The translations under genes were made by a program, and so were the position numbers. A stretch of DNA of 64,000 nucleotides, from contig CANPWB010000003.1 in assembly GCA_947581925.1 (NCBI GenBank), forward strand, positions 1-64,000, in the 5' to 3' direction. Shown piece after piece: positions 10,360-16,756 of the stretch (positions are counted from its first letter, which is position 1; every line of letters starts with the position of its first letter). The notes under the pieces are model-generated. The model did no database searches, was not told where the DNA came from, and saw only the letters and a program-made list of their open reading frames with translations. Source of the DNA: an uncultured Clostridia bacterium. Lineage in GTDB: Bacteria; Bacillota; Clostridia; Christensenellales; CAG-917.

Positions 10360-11733
10360 TCACCTATTAAGCAGCATATTTTTGAGGTCGGCGACGGCGA
10401 TCTTTATACGTGGATTTGTCGAAATCTCCTCGCTTATTTTGTCGCGGGCGTGGATTATGGTGGTGTGGTCCTTGCCGCCGAACATCTCCCCTATTTGCGC
10501 GAGTGGCATGGGAAGTAGCTCAGTAATGAGATAAATAGCGATCATTCTCGGCTCCACAATGTTTTTGGTGCGGCGAGAAGAGACTATCTCGGCGGGGGTG
10601 AGGTTGAAATATTTACAGACGGCGTTTACGATGTCGCTTGCGTCGATGGACTCCTTTTTGTCCTCTATAAAATCGCTTAGCGCCTCGTAGGCGAGCTCCT
10701 TTGTGTCGATGACCCTGTTTGCCAGGGAGCTGAAAAAGACTATTTTGTTGAGCAGCCCTTCCATTTCGCGTATATTTGTGGTGGAGCTTTCCGCGATAAA
10801 CTCCGCGACTTCATCCGAGAGCGCGAATTTTGCCTGCGCCGCCTTATCCTTTAAAATTGCGACCCTTGTCTCGGTGTCGGGGATCTGTATATCCACAGTC
10901 AAACCCCAACTGAAACGCGTACGCAGTCTCTCCTCGAGAGTTGTGAGGTCCTTGGGCGCGCGATCGGACGTGAGGATTATCTGTTTGCTCCTGTGGTAGA
11001 GGTCGTTGAAAACGTTGAAGAAGAGCTCCTGCGTCGCCTCTTTGTTGATGAGGGATTGTATATCGTCAACCATGAGAATGTCGCAACTGTTGTATTTTTC
11101 ACGCAGCTTTGTAGCGTCGTCGCGGGACTTTGGGTGCATTATGGACAAAAACTCCGTGATAAGAGTATCCGCGCTGACATAGAGCACCGTCTTTTCGGGG
11201 TTATTTTTGTAGACGTAATTGCCTATCGCGTGCAAAAGGTGGGTCTTGCCAAGCCCTACGCCCGAGTATATGAAGAGAGGATTGTATTGATTTCCCGGCT
11301 CCTCAGCGACTGTCTTTGCCGCGGCGAGCGCGTAGGCGTTGGACTTGCCCTCTATGAAAGTCTCGAAAGTGTATTTTGGGAGAAATGGGTTTTTCCGCCT
11401 TACCCTGTTCACATCTACGGAAGTGCCGATGAAACCCTCGTCCTCAATGAAAATGCTTTGGTTTTTCAAAAACTCGTCCTTTTTGTCGGGAGTGGTGATG
11501 ACTACGTCCGTAATGGACGAATTTATTGACGAGACGACCTCGCGTATCTTGTCAAGGTGACGCATATCTATGGTGCGTTTGGATGTTTCGGATATGGTGA
11601 GAAGGACCAGTGTTTTGCCGCCAACGACGCACACTGGTTCGAGCTTGTCGATCCACACCTCATAGCTTATCGCGTTCATGGATATGGAAAGTTGATCTTT
11701 GGCATCCGCCCAAAACAAGTTGAGGTCTAACAT
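10360..11733 (-). CDS. dnaA: Chromosomal replication initiator DnaA
   Basis: NPLFIYSGVGLGKTHLLHAIGNYV, DILMVDDIQSL, GGKDHTTIIHARDKI; start ATG at 11733. Confidence 0.97.
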   Translation of the reverse strand: MLDLNLFWADAKDQLSISMNAISYEVWIDKLEPVCVVGGKTLVLLTISETSKRTIDMRHLDKIREVVSSINSSITDVVITTPDKKDEFLKNQSIFIEDEGFIGTSVDVNRVRRKNPFLPKYTFETFIEGKSNAYALAAAKTVAEEPGNQYNPLFIYSGVGLGKTHLLHAIGNYVYKNNPEKTVLYVSADTLITEFLSIMHPKSRDDATKLREKYNSCDILMVDDIQSLINKEATQELFFNVFNDLYHRSKQIILTSDRAPKDLTTLEERLRTRFSWGLTVDIQIPDTETRVAILKDKAAQAKFALSDEVAEFIAESSTTNIREMEGLLNKIVFFSSLANRVIDTKELAYEALSDFIEDKKESIDASDIVNAVCKYFNLTPAEIVSSRRTKNIVEPRMIAIYLITELLPMPLAQIGEMFGGKDHTTIIHARDKISEEISTNPRIKIAVADLKNMLLNR

Positions 11734-11840
11734 GCTTTTGATTATATCAAAAACGGCAAAAATAGCAAGCAAAAAACAAAAAAAGAAATCTAAACACAAT
11801 ATGTTGAAAAAAAAACGGCGGCGGGTTATACTTGTTGTGT

Positions 11841-12932
11841 ATGAGGATATCTTCTTTGGAGCTTTCAAACTTCCGCAACTATGCGTCCGCGTCCGTCTCG
11901 TTTGAAGACGGATTGAATGTCTTGTACGGCAAAAACGCGAGCGGAAAGACAAATCTCCTCGAGAGCATATACCTCTGCTCCATCTTCAAAAGCCCTCGCA
12001 CGACGAAGGATAAGGAGCTTGTGAAGATAGGCGAAAAGAGCGCTACGGTCAAGCTTGTCGTGGAGCGAAAATTTGCAAGACATACCATATATCTGAACAT
12101 AGACGCGCAGGGGCACAAAAAGGTCGCCGTGGATGGCTTGCCCATAAACCGCGCGGGAGAACTTTTGGGCGTCTTGGGCGTCGTTTTCTTCTCTCCCGAC
12201 GAGATGAAACTCGTCAAGGAATCCCCCGCCGAGCGCCGCAGATTTTTGGACGTAGGACTCTCACAACAGCAGAAAAGCTACTTTATCGCACTGCAACGCT
12301 ATAATAAAACCCTGAAACAGAAAAATAACCTGCTCAAAGACTATCGCGGGAGCGCGAATATAGACGACATGCTTGACGTCTGGGACGCGGGGCTCGCGAG
12401 AGAGGGCGCGCTCATCATAAAGCGCCGAGTGGAGTACATCGCCACCCTAAACGACGCCGCGGGCAAATTTCACAGCGCGATAAGCGGGCAAAAAGAACAG
12501 CTCAAACTGTCCTATGAAAGCGGCATGAGCGACGCCGCGCAGGGCGAAGATATTGAAAAATTGCTACTTGGGGCTATAAAAGCGGCAAGGAGCAAAGATA
12601 AAGAACTGGGTTTCAGCACTGTCGGACCTCACCGCGACGATATCAAGATAGAGCTCGACGGCAAGGACAGCCGCAAGTTCGCCTCGCAGGGACAGCAGCG
12701 CACTATCGCCCTCGCAATGAAACTCGGCGAAGTGCTCATCTACCGCGACGGCATAGGCGAGTCTCCCGTGCTTTTGCTCGACGACGTACTGAGCGAGCTG
12801 GACGAAAACCGCCAAAACCTCCTCCTCAAAATGACTCGCGGATTTCAGACCTTCCTCACCTGTACCGAGTTCGATTTGCCCTATCCCGCCACAAAATTTC
12901 TCATCAACGACGGCAGCGCCAAAAAAATGTAG
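11841..12932 (+). CDS. recF: DNA replication/repair protein RecF
   Basis: LYGKNASGKTNLLESIYLCSI, FFSPDEMKLVKESPAERRRFLD, LLLDDVLSELDENRQNLLL. Confidence 0.96.
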   Translation: MRISSLELSNFRNYASASVSFEDGLNVLYGKNASGKTNLLESIYLCSIFKSPRTTKDKELVKIGEKSATVKLVVERKFARHTIYLNIDAQGHKKVAVDGLPINRAGELLGVLGVVFFSPDEMKLVKESPAERRRFLDVGLSQQQKSYFIALQRYNKTLKQKNNLLKDYRGSANIDDMLDVWDAGLAREGALIIKRRVEYIATLNDAAGKFHSAISGQKEQLKLSYESGMSDAAQGEDIEKLLLGAIKAARSKDKELGFSTVGPHRDDIKIELDGKDSRKFASQGQQRTIALAMKLGEVLIYRDGIGESPVLLLDDVLSELDENRQNLLLKMTRGFQTFLTCTEFDLPYPATKFLINDGSAKKM

Positions 12933-12944
12933 TTTTATGTCCCG

Positions 12945-13345
12945 CGCAGGTTTATTGTTTGCATGTGGGCTCCTCGCCCACGCCTCGGCAAGGGGTTTCA
13001 CCCCCTGCACTCCCCATGCGGGGCGCTGCCCCGCACCCCGGCAAAGGGCGCTTTGCCCTTTGCAATCCCAAGCTAAAAACGCGCGAACGTCGTGACTTTT
13101 GTCACTAGTTCGCGCGTTTTTGGATTGTGTGTAAGGTAAAACTCCTGCGTGGGAGCTTGATATAAATGTCTCGTATTGTCCGAGGTTTTTTACTTAAACC
13201 TGGGGATGTTTCGACTTCGCTCAACATGACAGAATATTTATAATGTCATTCCGAGCATACGGGGTCGCCAAAATAATTACGAAGTGATTTTTTGGGGTAA
13301 AGCGTCGAGGAATCCCCTTGTCCGAGCGAATAAACGCAACCTCTG
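12945..13345. repeat. Composite intergenic repeat region
   Basis: GC hairpin array followed by aaaaacgcgcgaacgtcgtgac...agttcgcgcgttttt and downstream modules. Confidence 0.75.
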
Positions 13346-13352
13346 TCCGAGC

Positions 13353-13823
13353 TTATCGCTCCGCAAAGTTGACAATGCTTTTATGCTTTTTGTGCGCATA
13401 CGCAAGAGCTTTGCAAGCGCCGCTGTTCTCGCGCTGTTCGGCGTAGAAAAGCACAACGTCGCTCATGTCTATCATAGCGCAGTTGCGATAGTACAACGAA
13501 GTATACCAATACTCAAAGCTCTTTGCGGGACAATCAAGCGCCTCGTATTCTTTTTTTTCGTACCAATGCGGCGGCTTATGCAGGTCGTGGTCGAGCGGAA
13601 AACAAAATACCCGCTTGATATTCAAATCGGGCTGCGCCTTTTTCTTCTCCGACACTATGTCGTACACCAGGTCGTCGAAATCGCTCAACCCGCCGAAGAG
13701 AAATGTACGCACTCCTTCATTTATCGCACTATCTATCGCCTCCGCGACATTAGCGCGCAACTTGTCTGTGATATCAACCTGTTTGTGCCCGAAACACGAG
13801 CAAATTTTGTCTTGTTCGATCAT
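13353..13823 (-). CDS. SLOG-family (YpsA/DUF1273-like) nucleotide-binding protein
   Basis: CSCFGHKQVDITDKLRANVAEAIDSAINEGVRTFLFGGLSDFDDLVYDIV; ATG 13823 lies directly after the U-tract of the RNA element. Confidence 0.7.
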   Translation of the reverse strand: MIEQDKICSCFGHKQVDITDKLRANVAEAIDSAINEGVRTFLFGGLSDFDDLVYDIVSEKKKAQPDLNIKRVFCFPLDHDLHKPPHWYEKKEYEALDCPAKSFEYWYTSLYYRNCAMIDMSDVVLFYAEQRENSGACKALAYAHKKHKSIVNFAER

Positions 13824-14027
13824 AAAAACGCCGCTCCTTTGGAACGGCGTTGTAGAATACCGTTCCATGGTTGCGACGCCAATAGACCTTGTTTTCTCCG
13901 AACCCAGGCTTAGAACAGGTATTACTACCTATATATTCGCCTGGGGACGAATATAGTATGCTGCTATATCCAAAAGAAAAATCGGATATCAAATAACAAG
14001 ATCTTATGCTATTGTCGTCGCAATGCT
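13824..14027 (-). ncRNA. Structured RNA element copy 1 (leader of SLOG gene; attenuator/riboswitch-like)
   Basis: Stem 14009-14021/13873-13885, further nested stems, GGAACGG:CCGUUCC alternative hairpin, and CGCCGUUCC-AAA-GGAGCGGCG + U5 at 13824-13849; paralogous to 14097-14289. Confidence 0.75.
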
Positions 14028-14056
14028 ATTGTATCACCTAAAAATCAAAATATCAA
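14028..14056 (-). promoter_or_regulatory. Sigma70/SigA-like promoter for RNA copy 1
   Basis: Minus strand TTGATA (14056-14051) - 17 nt - TACAAT (14033-14028). Confidence 0.8.
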
Positions 14057-14096
14057 TTGCAATTTGAAATATTAAAAACTTTCAACTACCAGTCAT

Positions 14097-14289
14097 AAAA
14101 AACGCCGCTCCTTTGGAACGGCGCCGTAGCATACCGTCCCATAGTCGCAACACTAACAAAACGTATCCTTCAAGTTCGGGAAAAACGTCGGAACTGGCAT
14201 CACTACCTATGATGTCCATTTTTCCCAAACAAAAAGTTCGTTATAACTCCTTGAAAGATAATTTTATGATTTATTAGTGTTGCAATGCT
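14097..14289 (-). ncRNA. Structured RNA element copy 2 (tandem paralog, no long downstream ORF)
   Basis: Stem GCAACACUAA (14274-14283)/UUAGUGUUGC (14147-14156), stems UAUCUUUCAAG/CUUGAAGGAUA and UUUGGGAAAAAUG/CGUUUUUCCCGAA, terminator-like hairpin 14103-14123 + U6. Confidence 0.75.
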
Positions 14290-14318
14290 ATTGTATCACC
14301 AAAATATCAGAATATCAA
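14290..14318 (-). promoter_or_regulatory. Sigma70/SigA-like promoter for RNA copy 2
   Basis: Minus strand TTGATA (14318-14313) - 17 nt - TACAAT (14295-14290). Confidence 0.8.
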
Positions 14319-14450
14319 TTGTAATTTGAAATTTACTACTCGGAATGACAAGTTATAATTCCTGTCATGTTGAGCAAAGTCGAGGAAACCCCTAGTCCGA
14401 GCGATTAACGCACCCTCTGCCCGAGCTTTCTTATACACGCCGTCTGCCTT

Positions 14451-14782
14451 GTCCGAGCAACTTCGCGGAGCAAGCGGTTTTACCCTAAGTACGCAGTGAG
14501 GGCGGAGCTCTGTTTTATTTCCGCCCGAACAAGTGGCATAATTGCAGACTTGTCTGCACGACGTATCTCGGTGAGCGAGCGCAGCCTCTTCCCGCCCTGC
14601 CGCGGCGTAATGCTTGGGCTGTGTTTGCGCTCGAGCGCAAACCGTTAGTGAGTACGGGGAGGGAGGGGAGTCCTGAGTGCAGTGTGGCGGAACGTTATGC
14701 TAATACTAATACCCAAACTCATCGCTGCACGTAACGAAGGGAGAGGTTGGGTCTTTCACTCCAATGTCTGAGATACTAACGC
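14451..14782. repeat. Left arm of interrupted inverted repeat flanking parBA
   Basis: Blocks 14451-14505, 14575-14631, 14719-14782 occur in reverse complement and reverse order at 17583-17529, 17256-17200, 16963-16900. Confidence 0.9.
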
Positions 14783-14894
14783 TTTTCGTGCTTGAACTCT
14801 AGTAACGCTTGTCCGGGCATTCTCATACACGGGCAGAAGCCTTCGTCCGAGCGTCCTCATATATGTTTTCCGCAATGTCCATATGAAAAGCGAC

Positions 14895-14938
14895 AGAAAA
14901 AACCGCCGATTTTGCATATTGTTTCAAAAGCGGCGGTT
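14895..14938 (-). terminator. Rho-independent terminator downstream of parB
   Basis: Minus strand AACCGCCG...CGGCGGTTTTTTC. Confidence 0.8.
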
Positions 14939-14981
14939 TATGACGTTAAAATTTAAAGTTTAACTTTGTTTTGTGCAAAAT

Positions 14982-15875
14982 TCAGCCTTTGAATTGTTTG
15001 AGCTGTTGCACAAGGGCGTAGATGCGGTTGAGATCGTCGGCGGTGAAGTAGTCAATGGTTATCCTGCCCTTTGACTCGTTGCCGCGAAGTTTGACTTTTG
15101 TCGCAAACACGCGTTTCATATCGTTGAGCATTTCGCGGATCTCGGGGCTTTGTATCCTCTCGCGCGGGCCGCCTACGTTGGATTTGCGGGTGAAGTAGAG
15201 GCGGACTTCCTGCTCGAGCTCGCGCACGGACATTTTGCGCTGTACCGCCTTTTTCGCCATGTCGATGAGCACTGCCTTGTCGTCTATGGAAATGAGGGAG
15301 CGCGCATGTCCCGGGGACAGCTCTCCCGAGCGGACGAGGTCGGTGACTTCCTTGGGGAGCTGTAAAAGGCGCAGAGTGTTTGTGACGTACGGGCGGGACT
15401 TGCCTATGCGCTGAGCGACGTCTTCTTGCGTGAGACCGTGGCTGTCCATAAGCTCGCGCATGCCCTCCGCCGCCTCTATCGCGTTGAGGTCCTCGCGGTG
15501 CAGGTTCTCGATGAGCGAGATCTCTTGTATCTGTTGAGGAGACAGGTCTCTGACGATAGCGGGGACTTTTTTGAGCCCCGCAAGCAGACTCGCGCGGAAA
15601 CGCCTCTCGCCCGCGATGATGAGATATCTTCCGCCCTCCGTCTTGACAAGGAGCAGAGGTTGAAGTACGCCGTACGTGGCTATGGAGTTTGCCATCTCGC
15701 GCAGACTGTCCTCATTGAAAGTCTTGCGCGGTTGAGAGGGATTGCGATCGATGAGAGTGATGTCTATCTCCTGCGTCGGGATGTCGTCGGGAGTGGGGAC
15801 TGCTACGTTCGTCTGATTGTCGTTGAACAGGCCGCTCAAGCCCTGTGCGCCGAGGCCGCCTTTTATCTTTGCCAT
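14982..15875 (-). CDS. parB: Chromosome partitioning protein ParB / Spo0J
   Basis: NPSQPRKTFNEDSLREMANSIATYGVLQPLLL, GERRFRASLLAGL, LSPGHARSLI. Confidence 0.97.
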   Translation of the reverse strand: MAKIKGGLGAQGLSGLFNDNQTNVAVPTPDDIPTQEIDITLIDRNPSQPRKTFNEDSLREMANSIATYGVLQPLLLVKTEGGRYLIIAGERRFRASLLAGLKKVPAIVRDLSPQQIQEISLIENLHREDLNAIEAAEGMRELMDSHGLTQEDVAQRIGKSRPYVTNTLRLLQLPKEVTDLVRSGELSPGHARSLISIDDKAVLIDMAKKAVQRKMSVRELEQEVRLYFTRKSNVGGPRERIQSPEIREMLNDMKRVFATKVKLRGNESKGRITIDYFTADDLNRIYALVQQLKQFKG

Positions 15876-15982
15876 AATATCCTCCGAAAATGTTTTCGTT
15901 TTTTATTGCGCCGCAGATGTGCGCTCGCATTTAAGCGTATTGCGTGATTTTTAAATAAATACGCATATGTGGTGCAAAAAGT

Positions 15983-16756
15983 TCACTCGCACGTCTCGCG
16001 GGAGAGGAACTCCGCCGCAAGAGCCCTGTATGCTACCGCGCCCGCGCAGCGATTGTCGTACTCCGTGATAGGCTTGCCATAGCTTGGCGCCTCGGCGAGG
16101 CGGATGTTGCGGGGTATCTTTGTCTCGAACACCTTGTCGCCGAAGAATTTTGTAATCTCCTCAAGCACGCCCTTTGAGAGCTTGGAGCGACCGTCGTACA
16201 TCGTCAGCACGACGCCCGTCACGTCCAGAGACGCGTTGAGGTGCTTTTTGACAAGTTTCACCGTGTTCATCATCTGGCTCAGCCCCTCGAGCGCAAAAAA
16301 TTCGCACTGTATGGGGATAAGCACGCCGTTCGACGCCGTAAGCGCGTTTACCGTGAGCAGCCCCAGCGACGGCGGACAGTCTATGAATACAAAATCGAAT
16401 TTGTCTTTAACGGGATCCAGCCTCTCGTCGAGGACGCGCTCCCGCCCTATCACTATTTGGCTGAGTTCGAGCTCCGCACCCGCAAGATCTATGGACGACG
16501 GGACAAGATACAGCCCGTCCGGCTTGCAGGGTATGATCGCGTCCTCGAAGGACAGCTCGTCGCAAAGTACGCCGTATACGGACGCCTTGAGTTTTTTATC
16601 GAATATGCCGAGCGCGCTTGTGGCGTTGCCCTGCGGATCGAAGTCCACAACAAGCACTTTCTTTCCGACCGCCGCGAGCGCCGCCGCAAGATCGACGCAT
16701 GTCGTGGTCTTACCTACGCCGCCCTTTTGATTTGAAAACGAAATAATTTTTGCCAT
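15983..16756 (-). CDS. parA: Chromosome partitioning ATPase ParA / Soj
   Basis: SNQKGGVGKTTTCVDLAAALA, VDFDPQGNATSALGI, FVFIDCPPSLGLLTVNAL. Confidence 0.97.
   Translation of the reverse strand: MAKIISFSNQKGGVGKTTTCVDLAAALAAVGKKVLVVDFDPQGNATSALGIFDKKLKASVYGVLCDELSFEDAIIPCKPDGLYLVPSSIDLAGAELELSQIVIGRERVLDERLDPVKDKFDFVFIDCPPSLGLLTVNALTASNGVLIPIQCEFFALEGLSQMMNTVKLVKKHLNASLDVTGVVLTMYDGRSKLSKGVLEEITKFFGDKVFETKIPRNIRLAEAPSYGKPITEYDNRCAGAVAYRALAAEFLSRETCE

Follow-up and report, generated by a model that had tools for sequence, protein, structure and literature searches.

We propose, with moderate confidence, that the minus-strand sequence ahead of a SLOG protein gene in the window (the whole 64,000-nucleotide stretch of an uncultured Clostridia contig analyzed here) forms the expression-platform end of a leader RNA acting in cis, a three-partner transcription attenuator that represents a large new family. 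With about 160–200 nt, more than 100 representatives, and no entry in Rfam, this structured leader would count as a new class of regulatory RNA, and a single regulatory scheme would then connect two groups of proteins from uncultured gut Clostridia, the poorly understood SLOG/YpsA proteins and the BspA-type surface lipoproteins. The original prediction placed at 13824-13885 two mutually exclusive folds, one of which hides the ribosome-binding site of the SLOG gene and ends transcription. That observation is confirmed, as every letter it named (GGAACGG, CCGUUCC, the terminator hairpin, and the spacing of GGAG and AUG) is exact on the minus strand, while its interpretation is partly supported. 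The interval is the 3′ end of an element that reaches from the promoter to the ATG (14056-13821), and exclusivity of the two helices holds, but the switch has three partners, the pairing of a rod tip with a downstream strand, R, having been missed.

Copy 1 of the leader occupies 13824-14025 on the minus strand, with a 5′ end near 14023, as delimited by the covariance models R2 and R1. Its promoter lies at 14056-14028 (minus strand) and consists of TTGATA and TACAAT separated by 17 nt, with a TG before the −10 element. The base of helix P1, which covaries in relatives (22 two-sided changes in helix 1), is formed by the 5′ strand UUGCGACG (14016-14023) and the 3′ strand CGUCGCAA (13871-13878). 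The rod tip, or code loop (GGUAGUAAUACCUGUUCU, 13912-13929), is complementary to the R strand (GGAACGGUAUUCUAC, 13852-13866) over 15 bp with two bulged U's, GUAG-u-AAUACC-u-GUUCU (from 13928) facing GGAAC-GGUAUU-CUAC (13866-13852). R can pair either with the tip or, via GGAACGG (13866-13860), with the 5′ arm of the terminator; GGAACGG is the 5′ strand of anti-terminator helix c, and its 3′ partner CCGUUCC (13841-13847) is also a portion of the 5′ arm of terminator hairpin d (13850-13828). The arms of d are ACGCCGTTCC (13850-13841) and GGAGCGGCGT (13837-13828) around AAA, followed by T's and the ATG at 13823-13821; as RNA this reads ACGCCGUUCC-AAA-GGAGCGGCGU and then U's. The Shine-Dalgarno GGAG (13837-13834) sits within the 3′ arm, ten bases ahead of the ATG. 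With its GC-rich stem and U run, d has the makeup of an intrinsic (Rho-independent) terminator, and it is one of four terminator-like hairpins in 1.1 kb (1.1 ± 1.2 in shuffles), another being the corresponding hairpin of copy 2. At the sequence level, mutually exclusive conserved helices, one of them a terminator, stand between a promoter and a gene, the arrangement of a cis-regulatory attenuator. Translation-coupled attenuation by a leader peptide was rejected because the rod lacks a start codon: there is no ATG, and hence no short ORF with a start codon, from 14024 to 13870, and an in-frame ATG at 13868 is not conserved in relatives.

Directly upstream of the copy 1 unit is a second, complete leader in tandem (copy 2, 14096-14287, minus strand; 118 bits with R1), with its own promoter (14318-14290), tip (14207-14190), R (14140-14126), and terminator (14125-14101), all on the same strand. 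Copy 2 ends in AUG ACU GGU AGU UGA, where a start codon stands but no gene follows. Blastn located one further copy, the third, in this genome and more within the genus, and scanning a single genome per species for a sequence pattern returned 13 stretches from Clostridia and related MAGs, of which 12 are real leaders. A DNA-pattern match in Blautia (L034) was rejected, as it resembles coding sequence and reaches just 27.3 bits with R1.

Model R1, built on the 3′ half of the leader, matches copy 1 at 13963-13821. It finds relatives in 52 of the 396 genomes of the order, up to six per genome, with almost no matches in samples of the class and phylum; a conserved structured domain ahead of related genes in this many genomes is what would be expected of a riboswitch. 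The 118 matches were aligned and 115 analyzed, since two loci were present twice. For model R2 the training set was confined to leaders other than those of the GGAAC-type SLOG class and contained no window sequence; the model recovers both window copies at full length (14025-13822, E = 1.4e-6, and 14287-14096, E = 5.6e-6) along with most other SLOG leaders tested; the leader classes therefore form one homologous family. In a 300-genome sample of the phylum, R2 gave no match outside the window's own genome, and three weak phylum matches (L068-L070, about 31 bits with R1) are unsupported since R2 does not recover them. In all, the covariance models give more than 100 relatives, nearly all within one order of Clostridia, and a promoter of the form TTGay-N17..21-TAnnAT precedes 87 of the 115. 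None of the 4227 models of Rfam 15 matches the window at the gathering threshold, and searches of 20 related loci returned only one tmRNA and one tRNA, neither of which is the leader. Our literature searches on SLOG proteins with riboswitches, and on LRR/BspA proteins with structured RNA, turned up no description of such a leader. Judged by Rfam 15 and by the literature searched, the family appears to be new. A phage origin was rejected: strict leader patterns had no hits in phage and viral sequences, the scores of 10 viral contigs matched by a shorter pattern were weak and chance-like (18.9–22.4 bits at best), and blastn against phages gave nothing. The plasmid search yielded one distant SLOG protein and nothing more.

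In every leader the rod measures about 33 bp, often carries a side hairpin, and ends in a tip loop that usually starts with GGUAG; R follows directly 3′ of the rod and the terminator comes next. The rod tip, R, and the terminator 5′ arm are mutually exclusive partners in three helices, tip:R, c, and d. Both c and d can form in all 19 aligned close leaders, where GGAACGG:CCGUUCC is paired in 100% of cells and the terminator in 99%. In a swap test on 99 non-redundant leaders, which treats leaders regardless of relatedness, own partners were preferred to swapped ones for c (z = −6.3), d (z = −20.1), and tip:R (z = −14.6; mean −18.9 kcal/mol with own partners vs −14.1 when swapped), and control pairings gave z from −2.0 to +0.6. 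Among 25 leaders of other classes, the P1 base, tip:R, and d together reach 98.5% paired cells with 39 two-sided changes; shuffles give 11.3 such changes and slid versions no more than 8. Tip:R covaries mostly between one code class and another. The SLOG-type class is weak by itself (z = −2.0), and in its close alignment the changes in tip:R and c are one-sided only; this class adds little covariation because its sequences vary too little. Helix c in its main register is kept in 83% of cells across the whole set, less well than d. Of 109 leaders, 104 have at least five U's among the 8 nt that follow d. We also considered matched P1 and P3 lengths as proof of a fold-back rod, a test that was dropped when the lengths turned out to be anticorrelated. 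Taken together, this comparative evidence supports the predicted cis-acting leader switch, in which an anti-terminator fold competes with a terminator fold that hides the ribosome-binding site ahead of a SLOG protein.

In the switch that we propose, the rod (helix P1 and its continuation P3) would display the tip loop. In the OFF state the tip would hold R, the terminator hairpin d would form, and transcription would stop; before SLOG genes the Shine-Dalgarno would be masked too, so that translation would be gated as well. Were a signal to occupy or remodel the tip, R would be released and, in the ON state, would take the terminator 5′ arm as anti-terminator c, so that RNA polymerase could read on and the SLOG ribosome-binding site would be freed. 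Sequence comparison shows the helices and their mutual exclusivity, the promoter, the terminator, the homology to leaders of other genes, and the discrete tip/R codes; we infer the cis pairing of tip and R during transcription and the release of R by a signal in trans. OFF is likewise the presumed default, because c is less stable than d in 105 of 109 leaders and less stable than tip:R in every one (mean −18.9, −17.6, and −9.2 kcal/mol for tip:R, d, and c). The pair of folds first envisaged is thus not evenly balanced, another element must hold the balance, and this element is probably the pairing of the rod tip with R. Because c is so much less stable than d, read-through may be rare. The tip lies about 33 bp from the rod base, and tip:R is a pseudoknot across P1; pairing in cis therefore needs a bent rod, and it is possible that tip and R pair between molecules instead. 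The signal read by the leader is a question approachable in vitro, with a simple readout, terminated versus read-through RNA.

The genes behind the leaders bear on what that signal could be. Among the 115 leaders, 41 precede SLOG genes of several subfamilies, 24 precede LRR_5 (BspA-type) repeat proteins, the majority of which have lipoprotein signals, and 7 precede zinc-ribbon membrane proteins; the remainder stand before other genes, no ORF, or a contig end. As the same RNA precedes LRR_5 lipoproteins and zinc-ribbon membrane proteins, the leader is not the SLOG-specific nucleotide or NAD sensor that had been suggested. The claim of ribosome-binding-site hiding fared better and is conserved for SLOG genes: the AUG is within 8 nt of the hairpin in 27 of 32 SLOG leaders and a separate Shine-Dalgarno occurs in 1 of 32, compared with a median hairpin-to-gene gap of 35 nt and an own Shine-Dalgarno in 33 of 41 for the other genes. 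From this spacing, masking would be restricted to SLOG genes, and the leaders of surface lipoproteins would only terminate. Two loci, L005 (about 1430-1500) and L022 (about 1270-1330), carry an inserted repeat (CCCCACAAAATCACTACGCAATTTTGCGGGG...) between the terminator and the ATG; the insertion has apparently duplicated the flank AAAGGAGCGGCG and left the SLOG gene with a second Shine-Dalgarno that lies outside the hairpin. Other genes behind leaders include one for a DUF559-type nuclease-like protein of about 424 aa (L067, 1650-2920), a LicD gene (L144), and genes for uncharacterized proteins of about 250 aa (L032, L099, and L100) that, from a shared motif (..IKDFT / VKDFT..), are apparently related to one another; the L099 protein, the one tested, has no Pfam family.

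A classical small-molecule riboswitch, with the rod as the aptamer, is quite possible, although we lean against it. A ligand would then stabilize the tip:R pseudoknot and turn the gene OFF, opposite in sign to a releasing signal. The layout resembles that of riboswitches in which a ligand-stabilized pseudoknot feeds a terminator/anti-terminator choice: such RNAs likewise act in cis from their own promoter, set an anti-terminator against an intrinsic terminator, use long-range pairing of an aptamer loop with the strand that controls the terminator, and may serve several genes or occur in tandem, as this leader does, with one class ahead of several genes and two tandem units before one gene. Most aptamers have a large fixed pocket, whereas few bases here are invariant across codes: GGUAG at the tip, the P1 base, and the AAC that follows it account for most of them. 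The leader, known from sequence alone, also differs from known riboswitches in a switching helix with interchangeable private codes, and the SLOG, LRR_5, zinc-ribbon, and LicD genes have no common pathway. T-box leaders have a long rod stem, a terminator/anti-terminator platform, modular specificity within one architecture, and occasional tandems, all shared with the present leader. However, RF00230 has no match in the window at the gathering score and none around the element at E ≤ 5, and the controlled genes are not aminoacyl-tRNA or amino-acid genes.

The R sequences fall into discrete classes, of 39 leaders (26 before SLOG genes), 15 (7 before SLOG genes), and a further 15 and 10 before LRR or zinc-ribbon genes. 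Same-code arrays precede SLOG genes in the window (two units), L022 (two), L006 (two), L096 (three), and L044 (four). Different-code pairs precede LRR or zinc-ribbon genes at six loci (L111, L153, L114, L101, L125, and L087), and at every one of these the best partner of a tip is the R of the same leader; the order of code 3 upstream and code 4 downstream recurs at four loci in two genomes. These patterns suggest to us, tentatively and with considerable doubt, a set of lineage-restricted, address-coded RNA switches, in which interchangeable tip:R codes let different signals or same-code leader RNAs address different gene sets (SLOG vs surface lipoproteins) and two tandem codes act as a two-input gate.

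The tip and R of one leader are complementary and share a private code, and arrays consist of two to four complete promoter-leader-terminator units, often with no intact gene between them. Terminated leaders of about 200 nt could act in trans, a released R binding the nascent tip of a same-code leader, freeing the nascent R, and causing antitermination, so that arrays set a copy-number or feedback response. R-like sequence is confined to the four code-1 leaders of the window's assembly (84% complete), hence that assembly has no separate antisense RNA carrying R, which agrees with such a model. We nevertheless find it unlikely, as intramolecular pairing would normally be expected to win and the arrays could be relics of duplication: a truncated SLOG gene follows copy 1 in L096, and L044 has AUG-UAA junctions. 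In L044 (2360-3390), four tandem promoter-leader-terminator units precede one SLOG gene, and the first three end in AUG-UAA.

The repetition of structured RNA units, with a terminator, ahead of a single protein gene also recalls RCd22/AbiF of C. difficile, in which a structured RNA ahead of a protein gene lowers its expression (PMC12373285). That the leader serves the SLOG protein as an RNA antitoxin or RNP partner, in the style of type III toxin-antitoxin systems or AbiF-RCd22, with a terminator that merely separates the RNA gene from the protein gene, is very unlikely in our estimation. Such an RNA would be dedicated to one toxin family, but this one is followed by unrelated lipoproteins and zinc-ribbon proteins besides SLOG, LicD, and others, and its terminator contains the ribosome-binding site; the phage collection gave no hit, and three code patterns had only chance-like matches in viral contigs. 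Least probable, and disfavored, is the view that the hairpin is just the intrinsic terminator of some dispersed repeat and that GGAACGG:CCGUUCC arises as a by-product, a view that would fit copies repeated in the genome and contigs that break nearby but not two alternative helices kept in 19 of 19 close leaders, an R that covaries with its partners, leaders that sit directly at start codons, or the same architecture found by R2 before other gene families.

The proposed three-partner attenuator of the window precedes a gene (13353-13823, minus strand) for a protein of 156 aa with a predicted YpsA-like fold, in line with the earlier assignment to SLOG. The AlphaFold model (pLDDT 87.4) has B. subtilis YpsA (2nx2) as its best PDB match in Foldseek (E = 1.6e-6), followed by Moco carrier and LOG proteins, which points to a Rossmann-like fold of the SLOG superfamily, YpsA (DUF1273) branch. 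Unlike YpsA, the protein stays below the gathering score of Pfam PF06908 (17.7 vs 27.7 bits, E = 0.0037) and carries FGGLSDFDD in place of the usual motif; the protein behind the leader in L041 is clearly over the YpsA cutoff (99 bits). Three of the four SLOG genes in the window's genome follow a leader, the one on contig 33 being without. The SLOG coding sequences of the window (13353-13823, contig 3) and of L002 (contig 11 of the same genome) are virtually identical and their leader rods strongly different, which suggests gene conversion or a recent transfer of the coding part. The locus lies between dnaA/recF and parB/parA (10360-16756), and a replication origin is likely nearby. Dispersed repeats typical of this genome (TGTCATTCCGAGC... 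and GGCAAAGGGCGC...) flank it at 12970-13340 and 14340-14880, and the contigs of relatives frequently stop just past their leaders.
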